64,000 nt of DNA from Crocinitomicaceae bacterium (GTDB lineage Bacteria > Bacteroidota > Bacteroidia > Flavobacteriales_D > Crocinitomicaceae), in assembly GCA_021325675.1 (NCBI GenBank), contig JAJTCM010000006.1, forward strand, positions 124,001-188,000. Direction: 5' to 3'. Both the position numbers and the translations under genes were made by a program. Below are positions 35,482 to 38,535 of the stretch, piece after piece. The notes under the pieces are model-generated. The model was not told the origin of the DNA. It saw only the letters and a program-made list of their open reading frames with translations, and did not search any database. How positions within the stretch are numbered: the first letter of the stretch is position 1; every line of letters starts with the position of its first letter.

Positions 35482-36144
35482 TCAGAATTTCAGGAAATTT
35501 AATAAAGCGTCGTAGCGGTTCTGCAGATCGTCATCGAAAGAGCTTTTCTGGTAGGAAGCCGCAATGGTGTAATCATAACGCTCAAAGGTCTGGATAATGC
35601 GCCCAAGCTCAATCTGGTTGATCTTCAGGGTCACTTCAAGCTTCGTCGAATCCGAAGAGGACATAATATATGAGCTCAGGATTTTGGCGTTGTTGCTCTC
35701 AACGATCTGTGCCATCTGCGCCAGCGAATAATCATTCTGGTTTACCTCAAGCACAAGGATACCGCCACGCTCGCGGATACTGCCCGTATTGGCGATCAGT
35801 GTAATCAACTGGTGAATGCTCGTGCAGCCGAGATACGTTTCATCTTCAGCTAAAATCGGGATGACTGAAATTTTGTGCTCTGCCACGCGAAAAAGCACTT
35901 CGTATATATGCGCGGCATCTTTAACATAAGGGCGCGGCAAATGATCGAAAAGCTTATCGAGGGTTTCCTCAAGGTCTTGTTTGTCGAGAATATCGGATTC
36001 TGAGATCAGGCCGACATAATTGTCGTTTTTAAGCACCGGCAAATGCGATACTTTAAATTCATCCATCCATCTCAGGGCTGTGTCACCGGTGTCAGTATGC
36101 TTTAAAGGAGGAATCTCGTCCGTTATTAAGTCTTTTGCTATCAT
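35482..36144 (-). CDS. Tandem CBS-domain protein
   Basis: A 220-residue cytoplasmic protein with two CBS motifs (about 1-58, IAKDLITDEIPPLKHTDTG and VGLISESDILD; about 70-128, ISVIPILAEDETYLGCTSIH) forming a Bateman module that senses adenine nucleotides. The C-terminal part (about 135-215, GILVLEVNQNDYSLAQMAQI) looks like an ACT-type regulatory domain, as in AcuB-like proteins. It directly precedes nadK and probably regulates or senses NAD or ATP status; no catalytic motif is seen. Start is the ATG at 36144. Confidence 0.88.
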   Translation of the reverse strand: MIAKDLITDEIPPLKHTDTGDTALRWMDEFKVSHLPVLKNDNYVGLISESDILDKQDLEETLDKLFDHLPRPYVKDAAHIYEVLFRVAEHKISVIPILAEDETYLGCTSIHQLITLIANTGSIRERGGILVLEVNQNDYSLAQMAQIVESNNAKILSSYIMSSSDSTKLEVTLKINQIELGRIIQTFERYDYTIAASYQKSSFDDDLQNRYDALLNFLKF

Positions 36145-36351
36145 GAAAGTGCCAAAGTAATAAATTCTTATAATTAAAACGCTCGCGAAAGTAAAAATAT
36201 TTCCTTTTTGAAAAATTTAGTACCAAAATGGTAAAGTCTATTTTAGCATCCTTTAACAAGATATTTAAATAAATGTTAAATGTTGCGCATAATAATACGT
36301 AATCCCGATTCTTAGCGTAATTTTGTAATGAGAGTAAGGATTAAACGTGTT

Positions 36352-36368
36352 TTGGCACGCTATTTGAA
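36352..36368 (+). promoter_or_regulatory. Sigma-54-like -24/-12 promoter
   Basis: TTGGCACG (36352-36359), four bases, then TTTGAA; the GG and the second element are separated by exactly 10 bp as in sigma-54 promoters. The -12 GC is GA here. No gene lies downstream on this strand; a terminator does, 60 bp later. Confidence 0.5.
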
Positions 36369-36377
36369 TCCTCATAA

Positions 36378-36451
36378 TCAAAGTTAGTTTTCATAAGTAG
36401 TAGTTTAAGTTAGGTTAAAAAAGAGTGAGACGCCCGTTTCACTCTTTTTTT
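36378..36451 (+). ncRNA. Candidate small RNA of about 75 nt
   Basis: Predicted between the sigma-54-like element (start near 36379) and the terminator at 36417-36451. It contains no reading frame of note: the body is AT-rich with TAGTTTTCATAAGTAGTAG, free to pair. Similar short promoter-terminator cassettes are a hallmark of bacterial small RNA genes. Inference from structure only. Confidence 0.4.
36417..36451 (+). terminator. Strong orphan terminator
   Basis: AAAAAAGAGTGAGAC (36417-36431) pairs with GTTTCACTCTTTTTT (36436-36450) around a GCCC loop with one G-T pair, ending in seven T. It belongs to no protein gene on this strand: the CBS gene upstream reads away from it and the sulfatase gene downstream is on the other strand. 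Confidence 0.85.
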
Positions 36452-36654
36452 GTTTTATATGCCTGACCTTCTTATGTGTGCATAAAGTTTGTTTCCCGCA
36501 GAAGACGTTGATTTTTACCCGGACTGACTTCCTTCGGGTGCTACATCGCGGAACGCTAACGTTTGTTTGAATTGTCGAGCTAAAGACGGATTACATTTCC
36601 CATCAGAGATTATATTCTGCGGACATCCACGCCCAAATTTACCAGCGAATCAGG

Positions 36655-38535
36655 CTAAAGCTCCTTGTAATATTGATAGACCTGCGTGATGAACGCGTTG
36701 CAGCGCTGGTGCTCGAAGGATTTTTTGCCGTTCGTAAACGCATCATCGAGGTACTGCTTCGTTTGCATCTGGTAAGTCAGGTTGCCGTTTTGCGTGACCC
36801 AGCCATAACCGCGGATCACCGTATGAAAAGCAAACGGAGTGATTTTCGGGTTCATCAAATCCTTGCTCCACTGGTATTCTTTGTTATCCACGCCCATCTG
36901 GTAGAGCAAAGTTGCCGGTAAATCCGCCTGCGAACCGATAATGTCTATGGTTTTCCCTTTGTATTCATTCTTCAGCGCAGGGCCCCAGAACAGGAGCGGG
37001 ATTCGATAAAAACTGCTCGTCATCGGCGATTGAACCTTTGGAGAGGCCCGGCTGTGATCGGCTACAAAAACGAAAAGCGTGTTTTTATACCATTTCTGCT
37101 TCCTGGCTTTTTGAATGAATTTGGCAATACACTGATCGGCATACACCATTGAATTCATGAAATCTGCTTCTTCGCCCGTCCAGTTTTGGCCCTTGGTTTT
37201 CGGGATATCGAACGGTGAATGCGTGCTTCCGGTAAAGGCGCATTGCATAAACGGTTCCTTCGCCTGGTTGATTTCCGTGATGAACTGCTTGTAGAGGTCT
37301 TCGTCAAAATAATTCAGCTTACCGCGTTCCAGGTTGCCGGGGAAATCGTTTTCGTCCTTCACCACGTCAAAATTGTGATCCATGAAATAGCCGCCGATGT
37401 TGCCGTATTTTAAATCGCCGCTAAAGAGGTAAGCGCTCGAATATCCATAAGGCTTTAAACTCTGGTTGATGGCTTTCAGCTTGCGGCTTTTTTCGGGCTG
37501 CATGGAAATCGACACTTCAGGAATTGCCGGGAAACCACTGAAAATACTTGCGTTCCCGATTTCGGACGTGTGGCTTGTGGCGTAAATGTTCGAGAAAAGC
37601 AAGCCTTCCGAAGCGAGCCTGTCAAAATTGGGTGTTGCGCCTTTGGTTTCACTCATGCAGCCAACTACTTCTGCCGCCCAGCTTTCGAGCACGACAAACA
37701 CAATATTCGGACGTTTGTTTTCCAGAAAATAATTGCCGTGTTCCCGCGGGTAAGAATATAAGTCTTTAACAATTTTTTCAGCTACCTGCGGATCGATCTT
37801 CGGCATAAATTCATCGATTTCGCTGCGGTTGTAGAGGAGGAAGCTTTTTGCGAAAAAGTACACGGAATTCATGGATAAATCGTTCGAAACCGGGTTGTTG
37901 GTATAAATCGCTGCGTTGATATTGATTGGGATTTGCTGGAAACCGCCCCGCAGTAATACCATCGAAATACCGCTGCCAATAACGATCAGCAAAAGATAAA
38001 CCGGGAAGATCAGCCAGCCGCGGACACGTGAAGCTGTAACTTGCGACCACAGCTCTTTTTTGAAAAGCCAGCGCAGCATTTTCCAGGAAAAAGCGACTTC
38101 CAGGACCAGGAAAACGAAAAACCAGACCGTCATGGAATAATCCGCTGACCGCACCACCTCATCCGGGTTGCTCAGGTGCATAAACACCCGCGAGGTCAGT
38201 TTATGGTTCCACTCGCCGTAAGCATTGATTTCGCCGCAATGGACCATGCCAACCAACACAAATTCAATGACAATTACCGTCAAAAAGAGATAACGAATGG
38301 CTTTTTTCGGAATAAAAAAGTAGAGGAAAAGCAAGAGCATCGGCAGGAAATTCAAGCCGGCAGCCGTAGCCATGTCCAGTTTAAAGGAGTAGAAAAACGA
38401 CAGCAGGATTTCACCGAAGCCAATGTCACGGAATTTATTCCAGTTGTGGATCAGGAAAAGTACGCGCTGAAAGTCGAAAATCAGGATCCAAAGCAGGAAG
38501 AGCTTGAGGAAAGCAAAGAATAAGCGTTTGATCAT
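36655..38535 (-). CDS. LtaS-like membrane sulfatase-fold enzyme (phosphoglycerol or phosphoethanolamine transferase type)
   Basis: A 626-residue protein with about five membrane helices in the first 200 residues and a periplasmic sulfatase/alkaline phosphatase-fold domain at about 275-575. Metal and nucleophile motifs are visible: NIVFVVLESWAAEVVG, ATSHTSEIGNASIFSGFP (candidate nucleophile Thr or Ser), FMQCAFTGSTHSPFD and FVFVADHSRASP. Proteins of this build transfer phosphoglycerol, phosphoethanolamine or similar head groups to envelope polymers. Lipoteichoic acid is absent in Bacteroidota, so the acceptor is probably a lipid A, lipid or glycan; unknown. It has a complete promoter and stands alone. 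Confidence 0.88.
   Translation of the reverse strand: MIKRLFFAFLKLFLLWILIFDFQRVLFLIHNWNKFRDIGFGEILLSFFYSFKLDMATAAGLNFLPMLLLFLYFFIPKKAIRYLFLTVIVIEFVLVGMVHCGEINAYGEWNHKLTSRVFMHLSNPDEVVRSADYSMTVWFFVFLVLEVAFSWKMLRWLFKKELWSQVTASRVRGWLIFPVYLLLIVIGSGISMVLLRGGFQQIPININAAIYTNNPVSNDLSMNSVYFFAKSFLLYNRSEIDEFMPKIDPQVAEKIVKDLYSYPREHGNYFLENKRPNIVFVVLESWAAEVVGCMSETKGATPNFDRLASEGLLFSNIYATSHTSEIGNASIFSGFPAIPEVSISMQPEKSRKLKAINQSLKPYGYSSAYLFSGDLKYGNIGGYFMDHNFDVVKDENDFPGNLERGKLNYFDEDLYKQFITEINQAKEPFMQCAFTGSTHSPFDIPKTKGQNWTGEEADFMNSMVYADQCIAKFIQKARKQKWYKNTLFVFVADHSRASPKVQSPMTSSFYRIPLLFWGPALKNEYKGKTIDIIGSQADLPATLLYQMGVDNKEYQWSKDLMNPKITPFAFHTVIRGYGWVTQNGNLTYQMQTKQYLDDAFTNGKKSFEHQRCNAFITQVYQYYKEL

Follow-up and report, generated by a model that had tools for sequence, protein, structure and literature searches.

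The Qrr small RNAs (sRNAs) of Vibrio are sigma-54-dependent and exist in several copies that carry one seed, and CrcZ and CrcY of Pseudomonas sequester Hfq-Crc. In the latter genus, CrcZ, CrcY and CrcX are known to be RpoN-dependent (PMC8657755). The FopS RNAs of Bacteroides consist of a single-stranded 5' seed followed by a terminator; they pair beside the start codon of SusC mRNA and thereby halt translation, with the protein RbpB as an antagonist, and they have the R1 seed in common with a further Bacteroides RNA, GibS (RF04182) (PMC11697453). In Flavobacterium psychrophilum, the conserved sRNA Rfp18 is strongly structured and its third stem-loop is the pairing region (PMC9723704). Little is known about post-transcriptional control in Bacteroidota beyond Bacteroides. 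Sigma-54 regulons, those of Bacteroidota included, were surveyed in 2025 in a study whose main text never uses the term sRNA. Our literature search returned no paper that joins Fluviicola with sRNA or Crocinitomicaceae with small RNA, and none on paralogous start-codon sRNAs in Flavobacteriales.

Here we analyzed a stretch of 64,000 nucleotides from a Crocinitomicaceae bacterium (the window), in which a small RNA gene lies in the gap between two protein genes (Table 1). The conserved core of this RNA is not a chance occurrence, and it is near certain that it marks a real multicopy sRNA family of the Crocinitomicaceae, which are aquatic bacteria. We found no name for this sRNA family, either among Rfam entries or in the literature searched, and a preliminary description of the window had overlooked it, together with the different promoters of its other members and the likeness to FopS.

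Table 1. Features of the small RNA locus and its flanks (positions in the window).
Feature	Position	Strand	Remarks
CBS-domain protein gene	35482-36144	-	One flank of the gap
Gap	36145-36654		Between two minus-strand genes
Conserved element TTTAACAAGATATTTAAATAAATGTTAAAT	36252-36281	+	From -127 to -98 relative to the sigma-54 start as predicted
Distal sigma-A type -7 box TAATTTTG	36318-36325	+	Putative longer transcript of ~125 nt
-24/-12 sigma-54-like promoter TTGGCACGCTATTTGA	36352-36367	+	10-nt spacing between GG and GA; GA at -12
Small RNA	Start ~36379, 3' end ~36452-36456 after the T run	+	Start predicted from promoter geometry
Conserved single-stranded core AGTTAGTTTTCATAAGTAGTAGTTTAAGTTAGG	36382-36414	+	31 invariant columns in five same-genus copies; unpaired in the predicted fold
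Intrinsic terminator hairpin AAAAAAGAGTGAGACGCCCGTTTCACTCTTTTTT with T run	36417-36450	+	15 pairs, 4-nt loop
Sulfatase-domain protein gene	36655-38535	-	Other flank of the gap

The preliminary description had placed in this gap a -24/-12-like element with 10-nt spacing and GA for GC, a terminator with a 15-bp stem and two flanking genes on the opposite strand, all of which were found as described, and a sigma-A box at 36319, which is present with its first letter at 36318. Counting the start from the -12 position of the promoter gives an RNA of about 75 nt. In the predicted fold of a 79-nt RNA the terminator hairpin is the only structure and the 5' part is single-stranded (-17.8 kcal/mol, z -4.06; none of 200 shuffles equally good). 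The core contains UUUUCAU, the complement of AUGAAAA. Terminator-like sites are not enriched at 34-39 kb of the window (4 versus 5.9 +/- 2.4 in shuffles), and the argument for the hairpin therefore comes from its conservation rather than from its presence. Since the hairpin is symmetrical, it possibly stops minus-strand transcripts too. A 19-codon frame (ATG at 36328, stop at 36385-36387) lies inside the putative longer sigma-A transcript; its ATG is missing in the four aligned same-genus relatives, and it was therefore rejected as a conserved peptide. Neither an Rfam family at its gathering score nor a tRNA was found within the window.

With the gap as BLAST query, matches were obtained in 17 of 59 genomes, the source genome included, and mostly covered window positions 36380-36455. 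Five same-genus copies, counting that of the window, were found free of any search pattern, and the invariant columns of their core are consecutive. All but one of the four relatives share with the window copy the -24/-12 element, an equally spaced TAnnTTTG box, the 31-nt core and the hairpin; in the fourth relative, core and hairpin are kept and the -24/-12 element is absent. The stand-alone RNA of about 75 nt proposed in the preliminary description is thus backed by comparison (core and hairpin in 4/4 relatives), as are the sigma-54-like promoter (-24/-12 element in 3/4) and the second, sigma-A promoter (TAnnTTTG box in 3/4). In the three nearest relatives, TATCTTTG or TATATTTG is aligned with the TAATTTTG of the window, and TAnnTTTG lies 71-72 nt 5' of TTTCAT in L001-L004. 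Comparison between genomes is what supports the gene, its terminator and core, the family and the promoter element.

An exact-pattern scan of a named genome collection gave 91 stretches. Among the 80 stretches listed, at least 42 are named Fluviicola, Brumimicrobium, Lishizhenia or Crocinitomicaceae, at least 30 are unplaced Flavobacteriales, Flavobacteriia, Bacteroidetes or bacterium, and at least 8 bear other names. TTTCATAAGTAGTAG is present at 140 distinct places, 136 of them with a terminator-like hairpin, and the family set comprises the 133 distinct members among these 136 that have at least 60 nt upstream. They lie at 93 loci, 72 with a single copy, 7 with two, 9 with three and 5 with four, so that 21 of the 93 hold two to four copies, sometimes in tandem. 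By the terminator rule applied, the core is without a terminator in 4 of the 140 stretches (L007 at 1844, L093, L121 and L131), L093 being counted so as a stretch at the end of its DNA. L121, L131 and L132, named Flavobacteriaceae or Maribacter, apparently represent one unrelated context; L132 is a doubtful member that entered the 133 through acceptance of a distant hairpin, and it was dropped before alignment A1. Most members were found via an exact pattern containing TTTCATAAGTAGTAG, so the invariance of TTTCATAAGTAGTAG in alignment A1 is by construction and the same-genus alignment gives the unbiased view; nor are members from the same locus or from sister species independent of each other. 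Many Brumimicrobium copies have GGUUUCAU in place of UUUUCAU. Typical Crocinitomicaceae copies also occur under the names Glaciecola amylolytica (L129, CP034120.1) and Chitinophaga pinensis (L062, L092, L117), names that are probably wrong.

Covariation of the stem, which the preliminary description had proposed as a check, was assessed in 67 aligned sequences (65 picked as diverse, plus L031 and L005). All 14 pairs show compensatory changes, with changes on both sides in 14/14; 93.5% of the stem cells pair, versus 73.1% when shuffled and 50.6-61.8% when slid, and the covariation score is 0.767 versus 0.346 shuffled. A covariance model of the family matched the window at 36382-36456 with 83.7 bits, the window sequence being in the training set. 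Matches with E <= 0.1 were obtained in 177 of 200 family genomes and with E <= 1e-5 in 118, many of these genomes being no independent test of a model trained on family sequences. Among 295 genomes of the class, 61 had a match with E <= 0.01, and 6 of the 61 belong to the family. Of 27 loci inspected outside the family, about 10 have TTTCAT shortly 5' of a hairpin, most clearly L218, L229, L230, L233, L234 and L238, and the rest are without it. The core had no match in viral contigs.

Two further matches of the covariance model in the source genome are divergent copies with sigma-A boxes. The one at C1:316258-316334 (minus strand, L316) has the core GTTTAGTTGTAAAAGGTAGGTTAGG and a terminator, with a sigma-A box just upstream, and its alignment to the window core is equalled by only 2 of 2000 shuffles. 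The other, at C10:21165-21247 (minus strand, L314), is a third type with AGTAGTAGTAGGTTAGGTTGATTAGTGT and a well-conserved hairpin, equalled by 61 of 2000. Both are without UUUUCAU, and both keep GUAG and GGUUAGGUU. A weaker match at C5:84873-84929 is doubtful. The sister RNA type of L316 is also seen at L005, L317 and L320, and the third type in another same-genus genome (L318).

The sigma-54 consensus has been given as TGGCACN5-7TTGCT (PMC12316311). The window element agrees with its TGGCAC, N5 and TTG parts, and reads GA instead of the GC that characterizes sigma-54 promoters at -12. The pattern TGG[CT][AG][CT]N5TTG was found within 75 nt in 76 of the 133 members, versus 0.11% of shuffles (ungapped), and the implied start lies 7-22 nt 5' of UUUCAU, just before the core. 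While TGG, TTG and their spacing are fixed by this search pattern, the letters that it leaves wholly or partly open are strongly kept as well: after TGG, C in 65/76, A in 75/76 and C in 63/76, and before TTG, A in 61/76 and T in 68/76. The A at -12 is shared by 64 of the 76. In the source genome, TTGGCAYN4TTTGM occurs at exactly 6 places, 5 with GC and that of the window with GA; the other five lie in gaps just before genes (L155, L156), inside genes (L157, L160) or in a gene end ~55 nt before the next gene (L159). With one mismatch allowed there are 95 places versus 97 for a reversed control, and it is therefore by its conservation, not by genome count, that the element is special. The rpoN DNA-binding domain was found in 36/36 genomes searched. 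The source genome encodes three strong sigma-54 activator domains, and five weaker matches (two in one frame) are probably other ATPases. Judged from these sequence features, sigma-54 control of the small RNA is likely.

Further upstream, the TTAACA...TGTTAA element is present in four of the five same-genus copies, the window counted, as is the -24/-12 element. GTTAAA occurs at -145 to -95 in 53 of the 75 sigma-54-type members with enough upstream sequence, versus 3.5% in shuffles, and TTTAACAAGATATTTAAATAAATGTTAAAT could serve a sigma-54 activator as its enhancer or belong to the distal promoter. A distal TAnnTTTG also occurs in 12 of the 76 members that bear the -24/-12 element; among the 57 others, 12 have only a proximal TAnnTTTG, 2 only a distal one and 43 none. 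Six Brumimicrobium copies (L063, L082, L083, L098, L106, L123) have a sigma-A box immediately 5' of the core, together with an upstream palindrome, AATACC(AT or TA)GGTAA, that hints at control by a separate regulator. In the tandem arrays L085, L101, L113, L116, L137 and L138, CGTATTAC(A/G)T(A/G)TAACAATAC replaces the -24/-12 element upstream of the first copy.

The A rather than C at -12 and the 57 of 133 members without the element would fit a site for another factor that only resembles a sigma-54 promoter. This appears improbable to us, given the strong conservation of the unconstrained letters of the element, the position of the implied start right in front of the core and the finding of rpoN in all genomes searched. 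A different question is whether the transcript is a separate RNA at all. The genes adjoining family members vary between loci, which argues that the RNA unit stands alone. In 64 of the 133 members (e.g., L058, L074), the start of lepA (elongation factor 4, identified in one example by NCBIfam TIGR01393) lies on the same strand 65-1144 nt past the hairpin (median 176), as it would if the promoter served a downstream gene and the hairpin were a regulated terminator in its 5' leader. However, the gene that follows the window copy is on the opposite strand, each tandem copy has its own terminator, and no lepA motif was found up to 1.5 kb downstream for the other 69 members, the window copy among them; since these 69 have no lepA start, a separate RNA beside lepA is likelier, and we give the leader very little credence. 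The lepA start region is no better a target either, its pairing with the core ranging from -6.1 to -13.5 kcal/mol (14 of the 64). It is hardly conceivable that the hairpin merely terminates the minus-strand sulfatase gene and that the promoter is a chance match: the hairpin is symmetrical, lies ~200 nt past the sulfatase stop and is of a kind no commoner than in shuffles, but core and hairpin, with the promoter in 76/133, recur in unrelated neighbourhoods. As a full account this reading is refuted by conservation, while a shared role of the hairpin as minus-strand terminator is possible. In one Brumimicrobium stretch, a SAM riboswitch (L017 2218-2334, 80.7 bits) lies ~0.5 kb past a tandem sRNA array.

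From the conserved features we infer how this separate RNA might be expressed, depend on sigma-54, pair, choose its targets and engage a protein partner. The gap would encode a trans-acting regulatory RNA of ~75 nt, a member of the multicopy family, whose short form is probably made by RNA polymerase with sigma-54 and whose longer form would come from the upstream sigma-A promoter; with a sigma-54 promoter, we propose, the short form would be made only while an enhancer-binding protein is active. The RNA would consist of a single-stranded 5' core and then the terminator. Through UUUUCAU and neighbouring bases the core would pair with the AUGAAAA start-codon region of some mRNAs and block ribosome loading, and an RRM-type RNA-binding protein would help or oppose the pairing, as in the case of FopS and RbpB in Bacteroides. 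On balance, we lean towards a sigma-54-driven trans-acting sRNA that pairs with start codons via UUUUCAU and involves an RRM protein.

Pairing was assessed by predicting duplexes with start regions. In the source genome (1038 start regions, 1.26 Mb), duplexes of the core outnumber those of 30/30 dinucleotide shuffles at -14 to -20 kcal/mol; below -20 kcal/mol there are 15, versus a shuffle mean of 3.6 and versus 4 in within-gene control stretches. When UUUUCAU was fixed and the flanks were shuffled, 7/60 shuffles reached the real count at -20 and 20-54/60 at -12 to -18. The real core is thus no better than the flank shuffles, and the excess in the source genome is due to UUUUCAU alone. In 412 start regions of other family genomes the core hardly outdid full shuffles, of which 3/60, 14/60 and 41/60 reached it at -20, -18 and -12, respectively, and at both -12 and -14 it had fewer pairing sites than did flank-shuffled cores (60/60). 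The best predicted target site in the source genome precedes a family M1 peptidase gene, which has no close orthologue in the four same-genus relatives. Of 14 other loci inspected, one has a comparable site at its likely start (L336, -19.0 kcal/mol; 10/200 flank shuffles as good), and two further start choices, at L326 and at an ATG inside L329, likewise outperform the majority of flank shuffles. As there is no excess beyond UUUUCAU and the site is mostly unconserved, the argument for start-codon pairing comes from the seed and from analogy.

The conserved GUAGUAG and UUAGG parts of the core may serve a protein instead. The RNA as a whole could then act by protein binding: an RRM protein would dock at GUAGUAG and UUAGGUU, and the many copies would titrate it as a decoy, much like CrcZ and CrcY with Hfq-Crc in Pseudomonas. 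AAGUAGUAG and UUAGG match UUUUCAU in conservation among the same-genus copies and add nothing to the pairing with start sites, the seedless divergent copies of the source genome have retained GUAG and GGUUAGGUU, and this genome encodes two RRM proteins. These proteins score 92.5 and 96.6 against NCBIfam Rbp_regulator, just under the cut-off of 100, which weakens the case for the decoy, as does the retention of UUUCAU across the 133 members, though most of them were found by it. We regard a decoy as rather unlikely. In one way or the other, the RNA probably acts on mRNAs or on an RNA-binding protein.

With its tandem copies, several promoter types and common core, the family offers a way to study the role of sigma-54 in these bacteria and the possible partnership of RRM proteins with their sRNAs. 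It also allows us to ask whether FopS arose locally or belongs to a system that spans the phylum. A doubtful scenario is that of an old Bacteroidota system, spread over the class, in which multicopy RNAs act against start codons and FopS and this family would form two branches; in Crocinitomicaceae it would have been placed under sigma-54, the -12 box being a variant one, one seed would have come under several sigma factors, and RRM proteins would replace Hfq.

Among the described systems, CrcZ/CrcY/CrcX and Qrr resemble the window RNA, by their descriptions and if it is controlled as proposed, as small RNAs under sigma-54 and an activator, and differ in belonging to another phylum and in the GA at -12 of the window RNA. 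Rfp18, likewise compared by description, is a conserved sRNA from the same order as the source genome; it is described with several stem-loops, the third of which pairs, whereas the window RNA folds to one hairpin. The GibS model matches the L002 copy weakly (29.2 bits versus a cut-off of 115, E 1.9).

The FopS model (RF04319, model length 71) gave 26.5 bits on the window RNA over its whole length, versus a cut-off of 56 (E 0.027 for 201 bases, 0.114 for the genome), and membership in FopS was rejected by this score. No FopS match above the cut-off was obtained in 35 genomes, the source genome included, and in a permissive scan of seven loci only the window copy matched. The model scores higher elsewhere in the source genome, at C2:200023-200109 (L025, 30.0 bits); there and at L035 it matches what is apparently the antisense of gene starts (..AACCTTAAATGTAATACTATGAAAAAA..), that is, start regions complementary to the FopS consensus. 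The alignment of the core with the FopS consensus was equalled by 65 of 2000 shuffles for the window and by 89 to 281 for four other cores. Conversely, the family covariance model, run on eight viral contigs with the exact FopS core string, did not match the above-cut-off FopS. FopS is described as having canonical sigma-A promoters and repressing SusC mRNAs. In the family, 76/133 members have -24/-12 elements, the window has a conserved distal TAATTTTG but a -24/-12 element as proximal promoter, and the targets of the window RNA are predicted ones. What the two have in common are multicopy paralogues, a 5' UUUUCAU facing AUGAAAA, similar GUA.UAG and UUUAA stretches and, in the predicted fold of the window RNA, a single-stranded 5' seed followed by a Rho-independent terminator. 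We regard the window RNA as an analogue, and a possible homologue, of FopS rather than a member of that family.
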